Below, one piece after another: positions 38,529 to 51,796 of a DNA stretch of 58,416 nucleotides. The DNA comes from Paludibacteraceae bacterium (GTDB taxonomy: Bacteria; Bacteroidota; Bacteroidia; Bacteroidales; Paludibacteraceae): assembly GCA_024399495.1 (NCBI GenBank), contig JAKSNY010000015.1, positions 1 to 58,416 on the forward strand. Reading direction: 5' to 3'. Below the pieces are notes generated by a model, which worked only from the letters and a program-made list of their open reading frames with translations, was not told the origin of the DNA and did no database searches. The translations under genes and the position numbers were made by a program. How positions within the stretch are numbered: the first letter of the stretch is position 1; every line of letters begins with the position of its first letter.

Positions 38529-40034
38529 TTATTGTGCTAATTCTGCAATCAGTGTGGCAAATGGGGTGATGTTACCTTGAACGCTGGCTTGTTCTAACGC
38601 TGACATATATTGTTCTCTGACATCCTTTGGTATTATAGTCCATCTATAGCCTCCGGAGGCAAGCATTAGATTCATTAAGAATCTTCCCATACGTCCGTTA
38701 CCATCCATATACGGGTGTATGAATGTGAATATAAAGTGACCTGCAACAGCCCTTACCCATGCATCGGGTTCTGTTTTTAATAAGTCAAAAAGTATAGGCA
38801 TTGTATCTCTGACAGCATCTGCATTTAGAGGTGTGTGCATTGAGTTTCTTATATACACCTGATGCGACCTGTATCCCACAACATCTGATGCCTTTAGAAT
38901 GCCTACCATCACTGATGGGGCGAACATCTCTTGATACCATTTTCTATGGTCATTTTCTGCCACAATGCCGGCATTTTCTCCATTGAGTATTGAGCGTATG
39001 CTGTTTTTAACTACCTGAAATGCTTGCCAATAGCCTCTTGCTGCAAGTGCCGCTTTACTATCTTTATCTTCATTGTTATCCGCAGGATTCCAATCTCCTT
39101 TACGAACTTTATCAATAAGTTCTTCTGTTACTTTATACCCTTCAATTGATAGTGAATGATAGGCATCTTGTTTATATTTATCCTCAATATCATCAAAATA
39201 AGCATTCGTACTCAATGCTTTGGGAACATTTGGCTTTACACTCAAAATGGTGTCACGCATATTCTGCCACATCAGTCTGATTCTTGCTGCATACGGAGAT
39301 TGCTCCTTTACATACTCGTATTTTTCTGAGAATGGGTCTGTCTCACGTATGTCATAACCGTAACGGACTAATGTATCTTTAATATCGTCCGCTATTTTTG
39401 TCATCTGACAGTTGTACAGAGCCCCGATAACTCTTTCGGCACGAGATGAGCGTCCTTTGTCAAGAATATAAGGTAGAATATCGGCGGCATCTTTTATAGT
39501 ACTTAATGCGATTCTTGCCGTCATACTATTGTTTTTATATAGTACGGGCGATGACATTACAAGAGCCTCTGCAATACTATATACATTTAGTCCGTATTGA
39601 CTCTCCTTTACAATGTTTGTAGGAGTTTCAGCCTTTAAGAAATATATGCTACAGGCAAAAGGCAGATTTACTGTTGTATTTGAACATTTTTTAGAGCGGA
39701 TAATCAACTGTGGTAATACCGTCCAGTTTCCTGTCTGTATATCTAATGACACCTCAGGAGTAAGAGACCAATCGTATCCCAACTTTTCAGTTATGAAATC
39801 CTTTATGAATCTCCAATATGACATATACCACGATGTAGAGTCTCCTTCTCGTGTGGCAGGGTCTGTCTGAATGTACCATCCGTTTATTATCTTCATAAGA
39901 AACCCGTTGTTGACAAGCCTTTCTAAATGGGTTCTTGATATTTCAGATGACCTGAAAACAGTACTTTTCTTTGATTCCTGAAGTTGTTTCAGAACATTCA
40001 ATGATTGTGCCAGATTTTCTGATGGAGTTGCCAT
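38529..40034 (-). CDS. Fic family protein with N-terminal winged-helix-like domain
   Basis: Starting at ATG 40034 gives 501 residues. The Fic core motif is intact, HPYMDGNGRMGR at 440-451, so AMP or a similar group transfer from a nucleotide is plausible. An (S/T)xxxE(G/N) inhibitory motif, S294-LSI-E298-G299, lies before the core, as in self-inhibited class II Fic proteins. The first ~60 residues (LNVLKQLQESKKSTVFRSSEISRTHLERLVNNGFLMKIINGWYIQ) resemble the AbiEi-type winged helix. The longer upstream frame is rejected because it runs through the promoter. Flanked by 46-bp direct repeats. Target unknown. Confidence 0.87.
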   Translation of the reverse strand: MATPSENLAQSLNVLKQLQESKKSTVFRSSEISRTHLERLVNNGFLMKIINGWYIQTDPATREGDSTSWYMSYWRFIKDFITEKLGYDWSLTPEVSLDIQTGNWTVLPQLIIRSKKCSNTTVNLPFACSIYFLKAETPTNIVKESQYGLNVYSIAEALVMSSPVLYKNNSMTARIALSTIKDAADILPYILDKGRSSRAERVIGALYNCQMTKIADDIKDTLVRYGYDIRETDPFSEKYEYVKEQSPYAARIRLMWQNMRDTILSVKPNVPKALSTNAYFDDIEDKYKQDAYHSLSIEGYKVTEELIDKVRKGDWNPADNNEDKDSKAALAARGYWQAFQVVKNSIRSILNGENAGIVAENDHRKWYQEMFAPSVMVGILKASDVVGYRSHQVYIRNSMHTPLNADAVRDTMPILFDLLKTEPDAWVRAVAGHFIFTFIHPYMDGNGRMGRFLMNLMLASGGYRWTIIPKDVREQYMSALEQASVQGNITPFATLIAELAQ

Positions 40035-40042
40035 AACAGGTG

Positions 40043-40073
40043 CAAAGTTACAATAAAATTTTTGTTGTGCAAA
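40043..40073 (-). promoter_or_regulatory. Bacteroides-type promoter of fic (near-leaderless)
   Basis: On the minus strand, TTTG (40070-40073) and TAACTTTG (40043-40050) are separated by 19 bp. The start codon at 40034 leaves a leader of only a few nucleotides. The -33 element lies inside a 25-bp tandem repeat. Confidence 0.8.
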
Positions 40074-40115
40074 TACAATTAAGTTTTTGTTGTGCAAATA
40101 CAATTAAGTTTTTGC
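40059..40115. repeat. 25-bp tandem repeat at the fic promoter
   Basis: Two identical 25-bp units (40059-40083, 40084-40108) and a 7-bp third start. Each carries the TTTG-containing -33 region on the minus strand. Confidence 0.9.
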
Positions 40116-40892: not shown

Positions 40893-42143
40893 ATGAACAA
40901 TTTTTTTTACAGGGTTCTCAGGAGAACTAGGGATTCCAAATTCATAAAGCACTCAAAGATTCTTACTGGGTCTGCTACCTTTGCATTATTGCTTTCCATA
41001 ATATTCTTTGTTTATCAGACGATTGATTCTAGAAGAGAGTCTGAGAAAATAATTAACAATTTAGTGAATGTACAGAATTCAATAACTACAAAATATATAG
41101 GTATTTTCCCAATATATATTCCAAGAATAAATAATTTGTTGGAGGAAGCTTTGGATTCATACACAAAAGATTATACCAATAAGGTTGACACGGTAATAAT
41201 ATTTCAGGACTTCCTATGCTATGGAATAAAGAGTGATCCTGCAGGATTTGCACAGATGACTGAACTGTTGCTGCATTTGTCTGACTTGGGTTGCCAAATA
41301 TACATTGCCTACTATAAACCTACTGGAAGAGCATTTAACACACTGATTAAGGAAACATTCTTGTCAACAGAAAATTATGCAAAATATCAGAATGACCGTC
41401 ATCGCTATTTTGAGTTGAGAACCAGATTGTATGATGATTTCACTAGACAACTCAGAAATAAAAAAAATGAATGCAATAATACTTTGCCCCCACATTTTGT
41501 TGACTCTCTAAAAAAAGCGTTGTTCCATCAATATTTTGAAGATTTGTTTGATATGAATAAATTAAAGTCTTTAGGTGTGTCAGAACATAATATTGTGGCG
41601 GCTGATTCAGGTACTAAAATAACATTGACAAAACATCGTGATGATGTTTATTTAATGGATTCATTAAAAAGTGAAGAATATTTTACTTTGACCAAAAGCG
41701 AAGATGAAGCTTCGTTTAAAAAACTGTTGGCATCGTATATGGACACTATTCCACAAATGCAACATTCCAGTAATGTAGCATCTTGGACAATTCGTACAAA
41801 TAATATGATTCAACATATGAATGGCATTAAACGTAATAATTTGAATAAGAATTATAAGGATGTGTCTTATTTTGATTTTTACAATACATATATGGAATTT
41901 AGCAGGGAAATGGAACGGATGTATTCTATGTGCAATCCAGAAAATATGCATCTTATTCCACTGGATGATTACCTTACTATGAGTTGTTGGATGACCAGTT
42001 GTGAAGGAAAGGGTAAGGCAATTTTTGCATTCCCAAGTAAATATGCAACAGAGGAGATTGGTTTTGAATCTCAGGATGATGCCATATCAGATTATATACG
42101 TACAATGCTTAACGGAGTATTGGTCTCGTCTGTTGAAAATTGA
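40893..42143 (+). CDS. membrane-anchored protein of unknown function (416 aa)
   Basis: One TM helix lies at about 23-41 (ILTGSATFALLLSIIFFVY), with a basic N-terminus inside; by the positive-inside rule the rest would be periplasmic. FPIYIPRINNLLEEALDSY, VDTVIIFQDFLCYGIKSDPAGFAQMTELLLHLSDLGCQIYIAYYKP and the tail GKAIFAFPSKYATEEIGFESQDDAISDYIRTML faintly recall phospholipase-D-like folds, but no HKD motif is present. Function unknown. It is bracketed by the two structured RNA copies and lies upstream of the tubulin/protease operon. Confidence 0.7.
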   Translation: MNNFFYRVLRRTRDSKFIKHSKILTGSATFALLLSIIFFVYQTIDSRRESEKIINNLVNVQNSITTKYIGIFPIYIPRINNLLEEALDSYTKDYTNKVDTVIIFQDFLCYGIKSDPAGFAQMTELLLHLSDLGCQIYIAYYKPTGRAFNTLIKETFLSTENYAKYQNDRHRYFELRTRLYDDFTRQLRNKKNECNNTLPPHFVDSLKKALFHQYFEDLFDMNKLKSLGVSEHNIVAADSGTKITLTKHRDDVYLMDSLKSEEYFTLTKSEDEASFKKLLASYMDTIPQMQHSSNVASWTIRTNNMIQHMNGIKRNNLNKNYKDVSYFDFYNTYMEFSREMERMYSMCNPENMHLIPLDDYLTMSCWMTSCEGKGKAIFAFPSKYATEEIGFESQDDAISDYIRTMLNGVLVSSVEN

Positions 42144-42491: not shown

Positions 42492-43499
42492 ATGAAGAAA
42501 TTTTTACTAACCTTATTGTTAATTTCTTTTTACGCTTCGTGGTCATTGGCTCAGGAGCCAGCTAAGTTAACCCGAAGAATTTATTTGTGGGACGTTACTT
42601 TGTCCATGAAAGGCTACCAAAACAAAACTCCTGATATTTATGATGATGTTGTTGCGTATTTGGTGCGTTGTATTAATGATGTGAAGGATGAAAGTACTGA
42701 AATTTATATCCTTCCATTTCAAACATCTGTACTTGAGTCGTGGAGTGCTAAGGCTACCGTTGAGGGTAAAAAGAAACTGATAGACAAAGTTAAGAATTAT
42801 AAAAATGACCAAGTTACCAATACTGATATAGTCAGTTCTATTCAGTATGTTAAGCAGAATATTATCAATCCTATGCCAAATAGAAATACATTCTTCGCTC
42901 TATTGACGGATGGAGAGCAAAGTAAATCGTTAGGTGGTATAGAAGCATTGATGAAGGAGTTGGGTGAATGGGATCGCTATGCTGTTGAGCAAAGCTCATA
43001 TATGCTTTATGTTATGCTTACGCCTGAAGCTGTTGATGATAGAATTATTGAGTTAGCAAAAGGGACATCAACTATAGAGACCGTTAAACCAGAAGATTCC
43101 CAGTTAGATGTAATTGATATTTTACCACAATCGCTTGTAACTGCAAACTTGAAGGATAGTGTGATAACAATTGCTCTAAAAAGTAATGGTAGAGCTTTAA
43201 TTCCAGAAGGATTGCGTTTTGAGTTTCAATCATTGGATGAAGAAGGATTTGTAAACCTTAAAGGAGAGACTGTGGAAAAAAATGCTGATATTGTTATTCC
43301 TGCAAGGTATGGTAAGTCTTATGATACGCTTAAAATTGATTTGCCTGAGGAGTATGAATTCCCTGTCCAACTGAAACTTATAAACAAGGATGAAATTAAG
43401 AATCGTGATAAAAAGATTGTGGTACTCTCACAATCAACAATATCGGTTAAATTGATTAATAGACCAGAGAAAGTATTAAGAATTAGTTTAAAAAAATAG
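42492..43499 (+). CDS. secreted von Willebrand factor A-domain protein
   Basis: This 335-residue protein has a Sec signal peptide (MKKFLLTLLLISFYASWSLAQ), so it is periplasmic. A vWA fold follows with a complete metal (MIDAS) site: DxTxS at 34-38 (WDVTLSMKG), Thr109/Thr111 (QVTNTDIVSSI) and Asp140 (LLTDGEQS). The C-terminal ~120 residues are a beta-rich domain (VITIALKSNGRALIPEGLRFEFQSLDEEG). vWA domains bind partners through the metal ion. It is the first gene of a tightly spaced operon with a tubulin-like GTPase and a protease. Confidence 0.85.
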   Translation: MKKFLLTLLLISFYASWSLAQEPAKLTRRIYLWDVTLSMKGYQNKTPDIYDDVVAYLVRCINDVKDESTEIYILPFQTSVLESWSAKATVEGKKKLIDKVKNYKNDQVTNTDIVSSIQYVKQNIINPMPNRNTFFALLTDGEQSKSLGGIEALMKELGEWDRYAVEQSSYMLYVMLTPEAVDDRIIELAKGTSTIETVKPEDSQLDVIDILPQSLVTANLKDSVITIALKSNGRALIPEGLRFEFQSLDEEGFVNLKGETVEKNADIVIPARYGKSYDTLKIDLPEEYEFPVQLKLINKDEIKNRDKKIVVLSQSTISVKLINRPEKVLRISLKK

Positions 43500-43505
43500 T
43501 TGATT

Positions 43506-44384
43506 ATGAAAAAATATACATTAATAATTTGCATTGCTTTATCAGCAGTTTTGTGTGGCTGTGTTGAAGAGGAGTCTGGTTCATATTGGGGTGAGACTAC
43601 ATATTATAATGACTTCTTATGGAAAAAACATGAGCCGGTTAAGATGGAACAAACTCTGGTATTTGACTTTAATGAGGATGCTCAGCGTTTGTTGCAGGAT
43701 GCAGTGTTCTCATTTGAGGTTGTGGAAAGAAATGCTGAGGGCGAGTTTGTGCCTGCTACAGATATTGCCCTTTATGCTAATGGAGTAAAGTGTGAGAGTA
43801 ATGTGTTTAAAATTACCGTTAAGGATAAGGAGTTGCCTTTGTGTGTAATATTTAATGATGATGCACGTGAGGGAAATCATACGCTCTTTTTACGGGAATT
43901 AGGAGATAATAGTCTGTCTCGTGTAGAATATACCGAATTAGGAGATGGTTTTGTGGTGAAAAAGACAGATTGTATTAATCCTCTTAAATTAGGCTTGACT
44001 TGGTTCTTGATAGTGATTGCGTGTTTACTATTATTGTGGATAATTGTATTGAGATATGTATTTTTCCCTCGTTTTAGTGTTAAAAAACTTAATGTGTCAA
44101 GTGGAGATAATTATAAAACCATAAATTTACGTGGCGTTCATAAAGTTGTATTTACTATTAGGAAGTGTAGCCAAAACTCACTAGCAGGTTTTTTTACGGG
44201 AAAAATAATTTATATAACAAATGATTTTTTCTCGCGTGGAGATGTTGTTGTTTCTCATAGAGATAAAAAGTCTGTTAGAATTAAAGCTGCAAAATATTTG
44301 TCTTCAGGAGGGCGACTACAAAAAGGAGAACAATATGAAATATCAAAAGAAGGTGAAAAAGAGAAAATAATAATGACAATTTAG
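43506..44384 (+). CDS. lipoprotein with single TM helix and cytoplasmic tail
   Basis: ATG 43506 gives 292 residues. A lipobox LCGC sets lipidated Cys19. A periplasmic beta-type domain (about 20-158) follows, then a clear TM helix (about 162-188, LGLTWFLIVIACLLLLWIIVL) and a basic C-terminal cytoplasmic domain of about 100 residues (FSVKKLNVSSGDNYKTINLRGVHKVVFTIRK). Lipid anchor and TM helix in one protein make it a natural coupler between the periplasmic vWA protein (6 bp upstream) and the cytoplasmic tubulin-like protein downstream. No family recognised. Confidence 0.75.
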   Translation: MKKYTLIICIALSAVLCGCVEEESGSYWGETTYYNDFLWKKHEPVKMEQTLVFDFNEDAQRLLQDAVFSFEVVERNAEGEFVPATDIALYANGVKCESNVFKITVKDKELPLCVIFNDDAREGNHTLFLRELGDNSLSRVEYTELGDGFVVKKTDCINPLKLGLTWFLIVIACLLLLWIIVLRYVFFPRFSVKKLNVSSGDNYKTINLRGVHKVVFTIRKCSQNSLAGFFTGKIIYITNDFFSRGDVVVSHRDKKSVRIKAAKYLSSGGRLQKGEQYEISKEGEKEKIIMTI

Positions 44385-44407
44385 TAATACTTTAAATTTA
44401 TACTACT

Positions 44408-47188
44408 ATGGCAAAGACAAAATTAAGAAGAAGCCTATATGTTGGCTTGGGTGGCACAGGTATGAATGCTATCTTAAAAACAAAAAAAATGTTTGTGGAA
44501 AATTATGGGGAAGTACCACCTATGATTAGTTTTTTAGGCATTGATACTGATGGTGGTGCATATACTAAAACAGAAAAAACAAAATTCGGAGAAATAGTTT
44601 CTCTTATTCCTTCAGAGCAATGTTCAATATGTGTTTCTACACCAGGTTCTTATTATTTGAACAATAAAGAGAGTATGTCTTGGATGCCATTAGAAAATGT
44701 GGCAATGATTAAAAGTCTTGATAAAGGAGCTGGACAGGTTAGAACTAATGGTAGGTTAGCGGTAATTCATAATGCCACAAAAATAGCAAATGCCTTTAAG
44801 ACTGCTATTGGTAATATCAGAAGTGATATATCGGATAATGAACAGTATGAGCTACTTCCCAATGCCATGGACGAAGTTCATATAATATTTTCTATTTGTG
44901 GTGGTACTGGTTGTGGTACATTTATTGATTTTGCATATATGTTAAATCATTTGTATAACAACGATAAGAGAACCTTGAATATTAATGGTTATGCAATCTT
45001 ACCTGATGTGTTTACTGAAATGGTTAAAGCTGGTAATGCTATGGCTAGAGTAAAACCAAATGCTTATGGTGCTATTCAGGATTTGGATTACTTGATGCAT
45101 TTGGATCTTAATTCAAAAGATGTCTCGTTTAATTGGATTAGCGATAGATGTACTACAAAAGATAAACCATTTTCCGCGTTTTATTTAATAGACAACAAGA
45201 ATGAAGATAACATTTGCTACAAAGAAGTTGGAAATTTGACTGAAATGGTTTCATTAGCACTAGTGTCGGCAGCAGGTCAAATTGGTACTGATACAGCAAG
45301 TGTGGCTGATAATGTTGAGAAGTGTATGATTGAAGGTTCGTTAAATGTAGGTAATAAAATTGCATGGGTATCTTCAATTGGGACTTCTTGTGTAAAATTC
45401 AATGGTTTTGAATTAGCGGAATTATATAAATTGTATGCGTCACAACGTATTATCCAACGTTTGATAATGTCATGTGAAAATGGTAATTTAAAAGCCGATG
45501 CATGGATAGATTCACCTAATGTTAATATAAGAGAAACAGGTTCGGAGAATGATAATGTCATTAATTTCTTACATGATTCTAAACCTAAATATTTAAAGGA
45601 TGATATAGCCGATCCTAAAAATCCAAAGGCTGAAGTTGATGAATACTTGAATGATATAGAGAAAGAGACAAGAGAAACTTGTGAAAGTAGGGCAAGTGAA
45701 TTAAAGGAGCGAGTGTTAAAAGAGTTGGATGAAAAATTCTTTGAATTGTTGAATCAGGGGGATTGTGGCATTACTTTGGCAGATGACACATTGAAGGCTA
45801 TTTTCAGACAAGTTGATACGTTTAAAAATGAAATGGTTCAGGAAAAGAAAGATTTAAAGGATAGAGAACCGTCAAATATGGCAGAATTAAAAGCGTATAT
45901 TGATGATTTAAAAGAGTGTATGTCAACTTTTCTAAAACGAGGTAAGACTGATAAAATATCTGATCTTGTTGAATCTGTAAATAAAATTGCAATAGTAAAA
46001 GTAAATTATATAAGACGTATTTATGCGGAAATGTTCTTTACTATGTTGTTAGAAAATATACAGGATAAATTAGAAAAGGTTAACATTGTTAAACAATATA
46101 TTACATCCATAAATGAAGATATTGTCAATAAAATTAGTGATGTTAGCGTAAATACTTTTAATGCAAAAACTGTAGAAATAGACTTGGCATCAGAATTAAA
46201 AAATAGGGTTGTAGTTGACGACAATGACATTATTATGTCAGATTTCATAAAGACATTACCTGGTAAAAGTTTGTGTGAACTTCAAAATAAAGGTATGATG
46301 TTTAAATATTTGATGGATTATGCACAAACATTGTCACCATATAAATCTTGGAAAAAACGTACTATTGATAATGTTATAGATGAACTTGAAGATGATGTTT
46401 TCAAGAATTTGATGGAAAGACTGATGGCAAAAGCAAAACCATTTTTGAAATTGGATTCTAACGGTATGATTACAAATTTGAATAAACAACCGATAGACCA
46501 AGCAATTAATAGGTATTATTATGTTGTTGTGCCAAATAAATCAGGTAGTCGTTTGTTTAAGAATGATACTTTCAAAAATATGAATGATGCAAGTCTGGAT
46601 ATTAAATTCATTGAAAGTGGTATGCAAGATCGTATTATTATCTATAGACAAGATGGTACATTCCCTGCATGTGCAGTTAGTGGAGTTACATCTTGGGCTA
46701 CTGAGTATGAACGTAGTGCAGTGAACTGTCATATCGACTCAAATCTTAAAAAAAGAATGGATGAAGAACATTATGCTATTAGACCTAGTAAATATACAGA
46801 TGATACATTGTCGTTTTGGGTTTATGGATGCATTTTTGGTTTAATTAAGTTTGAAAAAGACACTTATTGGTATCGTGATAAAGAAAATGGATCTTCTTTA
46901 AATAAATATTGGGTTAGCACTGGTGAGCGTTATAGAGATTTAGCATATGATAAATTTGTTGAACGTGGGAAAAGTTTGTTAACTCAATATGAATCGCAAA
47001 TTGAGCAACAGTTCTCTAATATGGGAAAAGAGAAATGGAAAGAAATGGTAGCTGACATTAAGGAAAATTATTTGGAAAAATATTCACAGTGTCCTATTTC
47101 TTTGGAAATAAAAAAACGTGAGTTGGAAGGAACTCTTAAATTGATGGAACAGGAGCTTGATTTTGTCGAAAAACGGATAGGAATTTAA
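44408..47188 (+). CDS. tubulin/FtsZ-like GTPase (Tubulin_2 type, 926 aa)
   Basis: The N-terminal ~380 residues are a tubulin/FtsZ-superfamily GTPase: VGLGGTGMN at 12-20 (FtsZ T1-like), GIDTD at 44-48 (like FtsZ NTD), GAGQVRTNGRLA (107-118, T3-like) and the signature loop CGGTGCGTF at 164-172. About 550 helical residues follow (coiled-coil-prone 400-560), far longer than FtsZ. This matches large FtsZ-like proteins of bacteria previously proposed to remodel membranes. No signal peptide or TM helix, so it is cytoplasmic. It probably forms nucleotide-dependent polymers; that is inferred. Confidence 0.85.
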   Translation: MAKTKLRRSLYVGLGGTGMNAILKTKKMFVENYGEVPPMISFLGIDTDGGAYTKTEKTKFGEIVSLIPSEQCSICVSTPGSYYLNNKESMSWMPLENVAMIKSLDKGAGQVRTNGRLAVIHNATKIANAFKTAIGNIRSDISDNEQYELLPNAMDEVHIIFSICGGTGCGTFIDFAYMLNHLYNNDKRTLNINGYAILPDVFTEMVKAGNAMARVKPNAYGAIQDLDYLMHLDLNSKDVSFNWISDRCTTKDKPFSAFYLIDNKNEDNICYKEVGNLTEMVSLALVSAAGQIGTDTASVADNVEKCMIEGSLNVGNKIAWVSSIGTSCVKFNGFELAELYKLYASQRIIQRLIMSCENGNLKADAWIDSPNVNIRETGSENDNVINFLHDSKPKYLKDDIADPKNPKAEVDEYLNDIEKETRETCESRASELKERVLKELDEKFFELLNQGDCGITLADDTLKAIFRQVDTFKNEMVQEKKDLKDREPSNMAELKAYIDDLKECMSTFLKRGKTDKISDLVESVNKIAIVKVNYIRRIYAEMFFTMLLENIQDKLEKVNIVKQYITSINEDIVNKISDVSVNTFNAKTVEIDLASELKNRVVVDDNDIIMSDFIKTLPGKSLCELQNKGMMFKYLMDYAQTLSPYKSWKKRTIDNVIDELEDDVFKNLMERLMAKAKPFLKLDSNGMITNLNKQPIDQAINRYYYVVVPNKSGSRLFKNDTFKNMNDASLDIKFIESGMQDRIIIYRQDGTFPACAVSGVTSWATEYERSAVNCHIDSNLKKRMDEEHYAIRPSKYTDDTLSFWVYGCIFGLIKFEKDTYWYRDKENGSSLNKYWVSTGERYRDLAYDKFVERGKSLLTQYESQIEQQFSNMGKEKWKEMVADIKENYLEKYSQCPISLEIKKRELEGTLKLMEQELDFVEKRIGI

Positions 47189-47200
47189 AAGCGTAACAAT

Positions 47201-50200
47201 ATGAGGCATTCAATGCATTTTGTGATTGGTTCGAGTGAAGTATTTGATAATACTTCGCTCGAACTTAAAAAATATCTGTACAATTATGGAAGTTCTGAGT
47301 TGTCTGAATATTTTAGAACATTCCTTTTGTGTGATAAAGATAAAAGAGTAGAGGTTTATGAAGCAGTATCCAATTCTGCTTTGGCTGACGTGTGTGAATT
47401 AGGGAAATGTGAGAGTGTCAGCTACAATAAGGTGCTTGATACACCCCAAAAAGAGAAGGAGGAACGTTTTGGACAATTTATAACTTCGTTGAGGGATAGC
47501 TCTATCAATATGGAGCATCCAGGCGATTACAAGGAATTGCATATTTGTTTCTATGTTCCTTTATATGATAAGAAAGCTGTATCAGTCTTATTAGAGTTTA
47601 TTTCTATAATAAAATCAGAAAAGTTGTTGTCTCAAATAGATGTAGTTGGACTATCTTATGATTTATATCCTATTTTATGTAATGAAAATGAATTGAATGA
47701 TTATCCCTTAAAGAGAAAAGATCTTGAAAAAAATTGTAAGAGATCAACCAACGATATACTATCATATAAGAAAAAAAACAGTCAAAGTATTGATCATTTT
47801 ATTTTTTTGCAAAATGTTCAAAATGATGGTATCTCTTTGAATTTAAATAATACAAGTTTTAATAGAATAATTGCCGAGTTCGCCCAAATATGTATAGAAA
47901 GATATAAAGATATATTTGGAGTGTTAACGGAACCTGATAAGATACAATGTATAGGCTTCTCCGCCTTGTCTTTAGATAAATTTTATTTTATTGAGTATTT
48001 ATTAAGTAAAACTTACATATATAAGTTGAAACAGGAGGGCATTGATCAAACAGCAGTTCCTATAAATAAATCAATGCAATGTGCAAATGAGATTTTACGC
48101 AAATGGGTAAAATTTTTATCGGATTTTTATGAGAATGATTTAAAAAATTCGTTTGATCAAAAGGATGATGAAAATGATGCTGAGATAAAATTCTCCATTC
48201 AATTTGAAGATAAATTAAGAGAACTTAAAAGCGATGTTGATGAATATTTGCAGAATTCTCAATTTTCTCTCGTTGAGAAAAAAGCTATTTTGGCGGCAAT
48301 GTTAGGCTTTGATGATGAATCTTTTGAAGATGATATTTTTGATGCTACTCTTTATGATGTTCGGGATTTGGAATGTGAATCGATTCAATTATTTGTTGAT
48401 GCCAATAATGAAATATTAAAAAATACAGAAGACAGCAATCAATCTATTTTGCCAGTAAGTGTTCCTGATAACTCAGAAGATTCCAATCCAATAGCGATAA
48501 ATCCTATAGATAGGATTAAACAATTGCGTATTAGAATGCGTCAGCATATCACATATATTAGAAAATTGGAATCGGAGAACGAGAAATTATCCAACCAAAT
48601 TTCAGGTATTGAAAATTCTACCAAATGCATAGAAAATGGGGTGTATAAGTTTGGTGGTACTGAATATAAATTATTAAACCCTACATTAGATACGCCTTTA
48701 ACAGAGCAATATGTACCTAAAGATGCCTCTTTTGCTAATAATATTGATTTGTCATCTCAGTTCACGCAGGTTAAAAATCAATCTACTATAGGTTCTTGCC
48801 TGTCATTCAGTTTGGTTAGTGTGTTTGAATACTTTTTAAAACAAAACAATTTGCCAAATCCTGATTTAAGTGAATTGTTTTTGTATTATAACTCCAGAAA
48901 ACGAGATGGCAAAGAGAATGAAGATAGTGGATCATGTATTAAATGTGCAGTTGAAAGCTTACAGCAAGATGGATTATGTGCAGAAAATGTATGGGGCTAT
49001 AATGTTGATAATTTTAATATTACTCCATCAGAAGAGGCTTATAATGATGCAAAAAAACGTTATGTGCGTAAGGCGTTAAATGTGTCTTGTAAAATATCAG
49101 ACATTAAATCTGCATTAACAGAGGGCTTCCCGGTAATTATTTCTGTCAACATCTTTGATTCTTTTGCAAATACGAGAAGTGGCTTTGTATCACTACCAAG
49201 TAAAGAAGAACTTGAAGAATCAAAAGATGAATATAATGGTCATGCGATGGTTGTTTGTGGGTATTCTGATGATCAGAAAGTGCTAAAGGTTAGAAATTCT
49301 TGGGGTGAGGAATTTGGAGATAAAGGTTATTGTTATTTGCCATATTCTTATATAGAGAATCCTGATTTATGCCATTATGCCGCGGTAATCACTGAGATAG
49401 AGTTTGTTAACGAGAAAAGTGCATCTGAAGAAATTGAACAAAACACCTATTCAATTAAAGAAGCTACCCATAAGCAATTGAAATTTAATATAGCTGACGC
49501 AAATGTTCAATATGCTATCAATAGTAATCTTATTAGTGAAGAGCAAGTGTCTTTAAATACGTTGAAAGACGATGATTTAATATTACAACGTTATTATACT
49601 GAATTAAGACAAATTTTAAAGAATCAAGTCAAACGTGATTCTTTACGTGATGCTTATTCTAAAATTGTTGAACAAGATATTAATAAATTGTCAAAACAAT
49701 TAGATGATAAATCAGAAGAAAGATTAGATGCCATTAAAAAGTTTGCAAAAGTTACCTTGAAGAATTGTTTGAAAGTTGGAACTGTTGTTCTTGCTTTGTT
49801 GGTAGTTTCTATTCTATTGTTAAAATTAAGTGGTTTCTTAGAATGTGATAACTATACGTCGTGGAATGCCTCTATTTGTGATTGGCTCGATAAAATGCAA
49901 AATACTTTACATACTGTATTTTGGGTGTTAACTTTTATTGAGATTTTATTGTGTATATTTCTTTCTATATATATACCATACAGGCTAACATTGAAACGCC
50001 GTTTGAGCGATGACTATATAGATCAAATGGAAGGAATAGAGAGAATCATTAATTCTAAAAAAACAGAATTGAAGGAGATAAAATTAAAATATCATTTTGC
50101 AGGTAAATGGTTGTGCCTATTATTTGATTTCAATGATGCTTTGCAGAATAAATACAATGTTTTTGTCTCTTTTAATAATAATTTAAAGCAGTGGTATTCA

Positions 50201-50752
50201 GAACAGCTGGAATATAATAGCAAAATGAATTCTCAATCGCAACCTCCATTTGAGTCTATTCTTGATAATAATACATTAGATGCGTATTTTGAAAATGAGA
50301 AAAATCAAATAGTGGAAGGAAAGAGTTTGGCTTCGTTTATGAATGGATTTGAATTATCTGAAGATGGAATAGTTAAATTTAAAGAAGATTTACGTAAATA
50401 TTTTATTCAATTATTGCATTCAAAACTTAGCGATTTTTCTATGTACAAATATTTAAGCGGACATAAATACAGTTACTTAAAACCTTGTGAGCAAACTTTG
50501 AAAAATCAGTTGGCAATAATTGACATAAAATCAAAGTTATTTGCACAGTGTGATGATGGTTGTGGTGCAATAGATCCACAAAAGTGCATATTTATATATA
50601 CTGATAATTCTAAAGACGAAATGAATTGGAATGAGACGTATCCTAAAGCATTTAGTGCAAGACCTACATCTTATAAAATAGATTCTCCCTATAAGATTGT
50701 GCTGTTTCAATTTGTTGATTTAGACCCCAAACAATGTGTAATTTTAAAATAA
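47201..50752 (+). CDS. papain-like cysteine protease with degenerate tubulin-like N-terminus and two TM helices (1183 aa)
   Basis: Residues 1-400 follow the adjacent tubulin-like protein by pattern (ELHICFYVPLYDKKAVSVLLEF at 112-133 against its HIIFSICGGTGCGTFIDF; IGFSALSLDKFYFIEYL at 251-267) but lack the GTP loop. A coiled coil lies at about 435-470. A C1-type (papain) domain spans about 480-735 with the full catalytic set: Gln527, Cys533 (STIGSCLSFS), His681 (GHAMVVCGY) and Asn699 (VRNSWGEEFGDKGY). TM helices are at about 857-876 and 905-925, then a 250-residue C-terminal region. With no signal peptide, the protease should face the cytoplasm. Start is 12 bp after the tubulin gene. Confidence 0.85.
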   Translation: MRHSMHFVIGSSEVFDNTSLELKKYLYNYGSSELSEYFRTFLLCDKDKRVEVYEAVSNSALADVCELGKCESVSYNKVLDTPQKEKEERFGQFITSLRDSSINMEHPGDYKELHICFYVPLYDKKAVSVLLEFISIIKSEKLLSQIDVVGLSYDLYPILCNENELNDYPLKRKDLEKNCKRSTNDILSYKKKNSQSIDHFIFLQNVQNDGISLNLNNTSFNRIIAEFAQICIERYKDIFGVLTEPDKIQCIGFSALSLDKFYFIEYLLSKTYIYKLKQEGIDQTAVPINKSMQCANEILRKWVKFLSDFYENDLKNSFDQKDDENDAEIKFSIQFEDKLRELKSDVDEYLQNSQFSLVEKKAILAAMLGFDDESFEDDIFDATLYDVRDLECESIQLFVDANNEILKNTEDSNQSILPVSVPDNSEDSNPIAINPIDRIKQLRIRMRQHITYIRKLESENEKLSNQISGIENSTKCIENGVYKFGGTEYKLLNPTLDTPLTEQYVPKDASFANNIDLSSQFTQVKNQSTIGSCLSFSLVSVFEYFLKQNNLPNPDLSELFLYYNSRKRDGKENEDSGSCIKCAVESLQQDGLCAENVWGYNVDNFNITPSEEAYNDAKKRYVRKALNVSCKISDIKSALTEGFPVIISVNIFDSFANTRSGFVSLPSKEELEESKDEYNGHAMVVCGYSDDQKVLKVRNSWGEEFGDKGYCYLPYSYIENPDLCHYAAVITEIEFVNEKSASEEIEQNTYSIKEATHKQLKFNIADANVQYAINSNLISEEQVSLNTLKDDDLILQRYYTELRQILKNQVKRDSLRDAYSKIVEQDINKLSKQLDDKSEERLDAIKKFAKVTLKNCLKVGTVVLALLVVSILLLKLSGFLECDNYTSWNASICDWLDKMQNTLHTVFWVLTFIEILLCIFLSIYIPYRLTLKRRLSDDYIDQMEGIERIINSKKTELKEIKLKYHFAGKWLCLLFDFNDALQNKYNVFVSFNNNLKQWYSEQLEYNSKMNSQSQPPFESILDNNTLDAYFENEKNQIVEGKSLASFMNGFELSEDGIVKFKEDLRKYFIQLLHSKLSDFSMYKYLSGHKYSYLKPCEQTLKNQLAIIDIKSKLFAQCDDGCGAIDPQKCIFIYTDNSKDEMNWNETYPKAFSARPTSYKIDSPYKIVLFQFVDLDPKQCVILK

Positions 50753-50758
50753 TGTGTT

Positions 50759-51136
50759 ATGAAAAAATGTGTTAATGTTTTATGCTGTCTTTTAATGGTA
50801 AGTGTGATATCGTTTACTATGGTATCTTGTGATAAGAAAAAGTATGCAATGAATGAATTGGAGGACTTGGTTAAAACCATTGATGAAAATGGTGCTAATT
50901 ATTCCGATGAAGAATGGGAGCAAGTTCTTGAAGAGTATAACAAAATTACTGATGAGATGAGTGAATATGACTATTCAAGCAAGGAAGCAGAACATATTGG
51001 AGATTTGAAGATTCAATTTGCTAAATTAGTGGCAAAATATAGGGTCAGTGCTATATTAGACGACACTAAACAATTTTTATTCCAGATTAAAGGTGCTGTT
51101 GAGGGTATGATGAACTGGTTGAAAAACTTTTTCTGA
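50759..51136 (+). CDS. small helical lipoprotein
   Basis: This 125-residue protein has a lipobox MVSC (Cys24) after a hydrophobic signal. The mature part is acidic and helical (DEEWEQVLEEYNKITDEMSEYDYSSKEAEHI), ending IKGAVEGMMNWLKNFF, an amphipathic tail. It lies 6 bp after the protease gene, so it is part of the operon. Family not recognised; similar helical lipoproteins are common in Bacteroidales. Confidence 0.75.
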   Translation: MKKCVNVLCCLLMVSVISFTMVSCDKKKYAMNELEDLVKTIDENGANYSDEEWEQVLEEYNKITDEMSEYDYSSKEAEHIGDLKIQFAKLVAKYRVSAILDDTKQFLFQIKGAVEGMMNWLKNFF

Positions 51137-51154
51137 ATGAAAAGTTCATTCTTT
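51135..51154 (+). terminator. weak hairpin at the end of the operon
   Basis: A GAATGAA/TTCATTC stem with a 3-nt loop overlaps the lipoprotein stop and is followed by only TTT. It may be a partial terminator before the TerB-like gene. Confidence 0.35.
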
Positions 51155-51313
51155 GTGTCATTATACTGAATAGAGTTATTATTTTTCTTCAGGAAAGTGG
51201 ATATTCCGCACCTGTTTTGGGGTGTATGGATGTGGCATGTACATTCATTTTCATTGTAGAAATAGAGAAGAAAATAGATGGTATTATTGATAATTCAAAG
51301 GAATGACATTATT

Positions 51314-51796
51314 ATGGAAAATTCTGCATTATTTAAATATTCAGTACGACGGCTTCAAAGTAAGTTTCAATCAGATGGATTGTTGGTTGAGATACTACAA
51401 CTTATTATAGACGATAAGATGAATAGTATCTCATTAGGTGCTTTGCTTAAAGAGAATCATGTTAAATCCAATTCTATTGAGTTGCGTAATGGCTTAATTA
51501 GTGTTGTCATATGTTATGCTCAAATGTGCTTGGAGGATGATTATTTATCGGAAGAAGAAATGACTAATGTTATGTTGCTTAAAACTTTTTTTAAATTAAA
51601 GGATGATAATTTTACTCAATATGAAACCAAGCCATTAGTAGAAGCAATAATAAGGACTCAGATTGAGAAGATGTATGCAGACCATATTATTGATTATCAA
51701 GAAGCCTTGCAACAAGTGGAATTGCAGAGTTTGTTTGGTCTTAGTTATGATGAATTTTCTAAAATTGTAGATGATGTGTGTCAATCTCAAGATTGA
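51314..51796 (+). CDS. TerB-like helical protein
   Basis: I start at ATG 51314 (MENSALFKYSVRRL), 11 nt after an AAGGAA, giving 160 residues; ATG 51278 is possible. The helical sequence with VVICYAQMCLEDDYLSEEEMTNVMLLKTFFKL resembles TerB/TerB-like proteins, where acidic residues between helices bind metal. TerB-like proteins often accompany vWA proteins in bacterial stress and phage-response systems. It may therefore belong functionally to the upstream vWA-tubulin-protease operon, 178 bp away. Assignment is by pattern only. Confidence 0.55.
   Translation: MENSALFKYSVRRLQSKFQSDGLLVEILQLIIDDKMNSISLGALLKENHVKSNSIELRNGLISVVICYAQMCLEDDYLSEEEMTNVMLLKTFFKLKDDNFTQYETKPLVEAIIRTQIEKMYADHIIDYQEALQQVELQSLFGLSYDEFSKIVDDVCQSQD

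Follow-up and report, generated by a model that had tools for sequence, protein, structure and literature searches.

We analysed a 58,416-nucleotide contig (JAKSNY010000015.1), referred to here as the window, which is part of the 2.08-Mb draft genome of a Paludibacteraceae bacterium, and found that four of its genes constitute one unit conserved in gut bacteria. They encode a secreted vWA protein, a lipoprotein that we call the coupler, a GTPase-like protein of the FtsZl1/Tubulin_2 family and a large protein carrying a papain-like (C1) protease domain. The four core genes and the small lipoprotein gene that follows them are arranged as listed below (ORF, open reading frame; TM, transmembrane; MIDAS, metal-ion-dependent adhesion site).

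42492-43499, plus strand: secreted vWA protein with a signal peptide (recognized by eye) and a MIDAS; vWA domain at about 42564-43136 (Pfam VWA).
43506-44384, plus strand: coupler lipoprotein with a periplasmic domain, a TM helix (about 43995-44051) and a cytoplasmic tail (lipobox Cys, hydropathy); an alternative earlier TTG start lies at 43500.
44408-47188, plus strand: FtsZl1/Tubulin_2 GTPase-like protein of 926 amino acids, with a GTPase domain at about 44408-45457 and a long C-terminal region (PF13809).
47201-50752, plus strand: protease protein of 1183 amino acids, with an N-domain (47201-48430), a C1 papain domain (about 48743-49420), a TM hairpin (about 49766-49969) and a C-terminal domain (Peptidase_C1).
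50759-51136, plus strand: small helical lipoprotein, DUF6565 (PF20203, E 1.4e-05).

The five genes are separated by 6, 23, 12 and 6 bases, in agreement with the first-pass annotation, a reading of the bare sequence that had placed five same-strand ORFs with short gaps at these positions. That reading had also described a secreted vWA protein with a MIDAS, a lipoprotein with one TM helix, tubulin/FtsZ loops in the 926-residue protein, an intact C1 active site beside two TM helices and, overall, an envelope-spanning topology, all of which agree with the profile matches, alignments and hydropathy given below.

A three-row tubulin alignment searched against the genomes of 84,980 species returned 42 loci, 34 in the window's clade, all titled as Bacteroidota lineages; a single-protein query of the same collection found no loci. 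Including loci from a search of genomes of the same family, 49 strong tubulins were collected, and removal of five identical ones left 44 non-redundant loci, all from Bacteroidota. The coupler gene lies immediately upstream of the tubulin gene in 43 of these 44, and a C1 protease gene immediately downstream in 39/43. Exceptions to the protease placement are L059, which is cut by the end of the locus, and L066 and L134, where the third protein lacks a C1 domain; a second tubulin copy in L121 has neither a coupler nor a protease neighbour. Among unfused relatives with an upstream gene, vWA immediately precedes the coupler in 23 of 25, no vWA ORF being called at the expected place in L045 and L072 by our own ORF caller, and the median gaps among relatives are 24 and 9 bases. 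The vWA and coupler sequences form a single ORF in 16 relatives, which argues for a physical coupling of the two proteins.

The same association was found across 300 genomes of the family. The tubulin profile matched 56 of them, and only the 16 with a full-length tubulin were counted as having the system. The protease profile matched 208, many through the C1 domain only (among the matches listed), and only the 15 genomes with the multi-domain protease were counted. All 15, including G005, in which the protease is cut by the contig end, belong to the 16 with a full-length tubulin (hypergeometric p 2e-24), the remaining one being G759 (locus L134). Over 39 loci the pairwise identities of the tubulin track those of the protease (correlation 0.93), a value that linkage alone would produce as well. 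As the first-pass annotation had supposed, the four core genes thus travel as one unit, and their homologues are neither scattered nor parts of unrelated units.

The Tubulin_2 profile covers the 926-residue protein from profile position 1 to 354 of 356 (E 1.6e-53), and the residues of the GTP loops (a T1-like GxGGTG and a T4 GGTGxG), namely G13, G15, G16, T17, G18, G165, G166, T167, G168 and G170, are, like D46, the same in 45 of 45 aligned rows. Judged by this full-length profile match, the GTP loops and the vWA gene in the operon, the protein is a member of the FtsZl1/Tubulin_2 family. Searches of solved structures by sequence gave nothing convincing for the tubulin, the coupler or the gene at 40893-42143. 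Second tubulin copies occur close to the main operon at L131:14002-15201, L132:13645-14862 and L121:6501-9302; two of the three are only about 400 amino acids long, without the C-terminal region. They also lie near relatives of the gene at 40893-42143, and a TPM-domain gene adjoins the L121 copy. Stand-alone proteins of about 330 amino acids in L142, L143 and L024, outside such operons, match only the region that follows the GTPase domain (tubulin residues of about 312-638).

Pfam VWA matched the vWA protein slightly over the cut-off (E 5.6e-05), and its MIDAS reads D-x-T-x-S..T..D and not D-x-S-x-S. Across 39 rows D34, S38 and T111 are each kept in 38 and D140 in all 39, and position 36 holds T in 36 rows and S in two, the absent cells being gaps (one gapped row); the site is therefore kept in relatives apart from a T/S exchange. 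The coupler matches no Pfam family, and its lipobox Cys19 is invariant in 22 of 22 aligned sequences (the window's and 21 of 27 unfused relatives). In the protease protein Peptidase_C1 covers residues 519-713 (E 1.2e-15), and Q527, C533, H681, N699 and W701 are invariant in 39/39 rows. The Gln-Cys-His-Asn active site and the papain fold of the predicted model both place the domain in papain family C1. From these conserved residues the GTPase and the protease look active as enzymes. Alignments of pro-cathepsins with the model begin before the C1 core, at about residue 469, as would be expected of a propeptide-like segment.

Hydropathy gives one TM segment in the coupler (residues 164-182) and two in the protease protein (about 856-874 and 905-923). 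By the positive-inside rule, flanks of TM helices that are rich in lysine and arginine lie on the cytoplasmic side, and K/R counts around the protease segments predict that its N-terminus, C1 domain and C-terminus are cytoplasmic.

We suggest tentatively, and with slightly less than even confidence, a general mechanism of sensor, coupler, GTPase assembly and clustered protease activation. The four core products would form an inner-membrane complex, in which the periplasmic vWA protein would bind a ligand or peptide by its MIDAS and sit on the lipidated, membrane-spanning coupler. The cytoplasmic tail of the coupler would dock the FtsZl1 GTPase, which would assemble in a GTP-dependent manner, and the protease, held at the membrane through its TM hairpin, would join the assembly, its N-domain possibly being a tubulin relative without GTP loops. 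Clustering would then release the zymogen-like C1 domain for cleavage of a cytoplasmic target, perhaps in a stress or phage response. We consider unlikely the more specific, inflammasome-like version in which a TM vWA sensor nucleates a GTP-driven polymer of the tubulin family, the membrane-bound papain zymogen joins via a pseudo-tubulin domain of its own that lacks the loops, and clustering fires the protease. To our knowledge no earlier tubulin-scaffolded protease switch is known, and this version would be the first.

There is a hint from profile comparison that the protease N-domain is a tubulin-fold relative that has no GTP loops. Aligned with combined FtsZl1 GTPase domains it reached an HHalign score of 39.5, while 11 other profiles did not exceed 20.7 and 60 shuffles reached no more than 20.1; a further control profile, C1, scored 46.5, some N-domain rows running into C1, and was set aside. 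The GTP-loop pattern is absent from the N-domain in 39/39 rows. Were the N-domain a pseudo-tubulin, an enzyme would here have a tubulin-fold domain as its adaptor, an unusual arrangement.

Several observations weigh against the proposed mechanism. The HHalign probability of that N-domain match is only 35%, and with own-clade tubulins alone it falls to 4% (at a score of 29.0, which nonetheless exceeds 14 shuffles), while the score with tubulins of a second operon type described below, 20.6, is not above controls (22.6 for the reversed sequence). A structure search with the protease model returned lists filled by the C1 domain, with no tubulins among the matches listed, and so was no test of the N-domain. 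TM counts from hydropathy range from 1 to 5 segments in 38 relatives. Rapid change is found outside the periplasm too: the cytoplasmic tail of the coupler and the linker of the protease evolve just as quickly. The third protein of L066 and L134 lacks a C1 domain, and the core may therefore work without proteolysis. Finally, T6-H7 could not be placed in FtsZl1 by the authors of the 2010 study of the family, according to the available part of that paper (PMC2875224).

Module by module, the GTPase and C1 domains are the slowest to change when 34 operons are divided into three divergence bands, which were defined on the GTPase domain and so favour it; the C-terminal part of vWA and the linker/TM region of the protease are among the least conserved, and the coupler changes fast on both of its sides. 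This bears on a different function, in which FtsZl1 would give the inner membrane its shape or form vesicles from it, and the protease would do no more than mature or turn over components. Such membrane remodelling, which we regard as somewhat unlikely, was proposed from context for the whole FtsZl1 family in the accessible text of PMC2875224; TM anchors on two components and the early branching of protease-less relatives are in line with it. However, C1 residues invariant in 39/39 rows, in one of the two best-conserved modules, are more than would be expected of a housekeeping trimmer, and the patchy distribution of the full-length tubulin (16/300 family genomes) also speaks against it.

The branching order comes from a quick tubulin tree with SH-aLRT supports only, for which the program gives a warning of long branches. 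The window's unit lies within a clade of 47 rows (support 99), in which L066 and L134, both long-branched, are the first to split off; the remaining 45 rows are held together with support 91. L059 and L069 are labelled as protease-bearing in this tree, the protease being cut off or out of view there. The topology fits a single gain of the protease in the clade. The window's tubulin is placed together with G929/G899, which belong to another genus (support 91), while the same-genus copy L071 clusters with Rikenellaceae records as part of a six-member group (support 100); horizontal movement of the operon is likely. The operon is present in 2/16 genomes of the genus, and the copies are only 27-32% identical and sit in different parts of the tree.

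In their N-domains the third proteins of L066 and L134 weakly resemble the protease protein (0/30 shuffles as high, probabilities of 12-14%), and that of L134 also has a C-terminal match to it (E 2e-18). A second FtsZl1 operon type occurs in the same bacterial family. Among the 25 loci examined, it comprises a vWA-TM gene (24/25), an FtsZl1 of about 1070-1100 amino acids (25/25), a third protein (24/25) and a fourth (24/25); in L138 the third protein is diverged and the fourth missing, and L160 has no vWA within the stretch covered. Its tubulin aligns with that of the window's clade over 882 columns (HHalign 99.9%). The alignment of the fused vWA-coupler with the vWA-TM protein spans the greater part of both (HHalign 97.5%), and the unfused coupler alone reaches only 18.7%. 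The second type thus resembles the window's unit in a vWA-TM protein homologous to the fused vWA-coupler, a homologous FtsZl1 and a third protein with a TM hairpin, but it differs in that two third proteins tested have no C1 domain and the fourth gene has a weak transglutaminase-like match. When the protease protein was compared with the second-type third protein, only the TM hairpin stood above shuffles (0/40 as high), the C-terminal part without the TM segments (13/40) and the N-domains alone (6/60) not doing so; through intermediates 0/30 shuffles were as high, at a probability of about 1%. Position and TM hairpin are common to the two groups of proteins, whose homology is unproven. The transglutaminase-like region of the fourth protein (L146:15366-17240 and relatives) is weak (E 0.02), and the position of the expected catalytic Cys varies by eye. 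The L138:12416-15361 third protein has a C-terminal vWA domain, as if the C-terminal module were exchangeable.

A patchy and probably horizontally moved operon would also suit an anti-phage or conflict system of the abortive type, with the vWA arm as a sensor of envelope damage and a protease that cuts proteins of the host or the phage, a role that we hold to be somewhat doubtful, much as we do remodelling. Full-length FtsZl1 relatives (HHalign 100%, 824 columns) are found on three Thermaceae plasmids from three genera (L168, L169 and L170), where vWA-FtsZl1-hypothetical cassettes (third protein of 677 to 686 amino acids) have brxL downstream, in one plasmid behind an insertion element. Helicase, exonuclease or Hma-type genes lie near the cassettes, and the neighbours of the Meiothermus cassette, the one checked, match HmaC and BrxL models. 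In an Azospirillum plasmid (L171) an FtsZl1-like gene lies near three genes annotated as caspase-family, plus OmpA and DUF4384 genes. Against this, the Thermaceae third protein was rejected as a homologue of the protease protein, no kinship being detectable, and eight window proteins compared with PADLOC 2023 at E<=0.1 gave one match, of 12 bits, between DpdJ and the small lipoprotein. Scanning the Bacteroidota flanks (148/243 ORFs, without control) gave no clear sign of defence: no family came up in more than 2, AbiEi matched once and TIR twice; in the Pfam scan AAA_14 was found in 5. No relatives were found in viral contigs, the mobile-element matches consisting of one weak phage-labelled contig and seven weak plasmid matches, five of them examined. 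A Deinococcus plasmid locus showed no named defence system by annotation. The Thermaceae and Azospirillum neighbourhoods make a conflict role worth testing, the case for defence being unproven and drawn from the distant Thermaceae relatives only. TerD domains, a link to Ter stress systems, were found in 5/46 ORFs scanned around proteobacterial FtsZl1 genes (L074, L075, L076, L078 and L081).

Three further genes of the window lie around the unit:

38529-40103, opposite strand, upstream of the operon: Fic-domain gene (Pfam Fic, E 4.1e-11).
40893-42143, plus strand: accessory gene whose product of 416 amino acids combines a conserved domain of no assigned family with a single N-terminal TM helix (Pfam matches below cut-off; relatives in 6 other loci).
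51278-51796: ORF of 172 amino acids, the "TerB-like" gene of the first-pass annotation (no Pfam family at E<=1).

Among the families that annotation had named, Tubulin_2, Peptidase_C1 and, just over the cut-off, VWA were recovered and TerB was not. Membership of the ORF at 51278-51796 was rejected, its best solved-structure match having E 0.82 and no ORF of the related neighbourhoods matching it. The gene at 40893-42143, without an NCBIfam family, recurs near the related operons downstream and not upstream, a recurrence that the earlier reading had overlooked. A relative of the DUF6565 lipoprotein lies on the same strand and no more than two genes from the core, before or after it, in 12 other loci and L131. 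In 9 loci (including L042:7245-8021 and L049:16255-17184) members of one sequence cluster are found one to three genes downstream of the protease, and the two members tested are DNA/RNA non-specific endonucleases.

The secreted vWA protein and the two lipoproteins would be compatible with an envelope quality-control or secretion-stress relay, in which vWA would recognize cargo that is misfolded or linked to peptidoglycan and the protease would adjust a regulator in the cytoplasm. The occasional presence of a PqiA-like neighbour points the same way, but that gene occurs in only 3 loci (Pfam match checked for L059), and no stress regulator recurs among the neighbourhood clusters listed; we judge such a relay quite unlikely. 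The intact, closely co-inherited protease of this subclade offers a testable output, as a substrate of C533 would make the function of the GTPase approachable. No paper assigning FtsZl1 a tested function was found in the literature searched, which includes few subscription journals.

The first-pass annotation had known of no described system with this gene set. This was too strong, because Makarova and Koonin had reported operons of vWA and FtsZl1 (Tubulin_2) with membrane proteins in 2010 (PMC2875224), and related tubulin and vWA conflict systems followed in 2020 (PMC7159879), as the available parts of both papers state; the protease arm does seem to be new. As presented in the main text of the 2010 paper, those operons share with the window's unit a Tubulin_2 GTPase with a long C-terminal region, a vWA partner gene and nearby membrane proteins, whereas the window's unit adds a dedicated coupler and a C1 protease protein. 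The words protease, peptidase and papain do not occur in that main text (PMC2875224), and the protease protein is possibly an unnamed family in its supplementary family lists. In the accessible part of Kaur et al. 2020 (PMC7159879), tubulin and vWA conflict systems are centred on GTPases (GAP1-N2), the tubulin theme being restricted to Firmicutes and Actinobacteria. They resemble the window's operon in a tubulin with a helical or coiled-coil C-terminal domain and an extracellular vWA protein with a TM segment, but they are defined by GTPase/GAP1 components, and the window's operon has a papain protease; the tubulin aside, no GTPase-family Pfam match was found in the nine window genes scanned. 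Xylellain-type papain-like proteases differ in turn, the window's C1 domain being embedded in a 1183-residue protein with an N-domain, a TM pair and a C-terminal domain. Judged by the features compared, the operon is a variant of the 2010 vWA-FtsZl1 systems, in which the new elements would be the protease arm and the hint of a tubulin-like N-domain.

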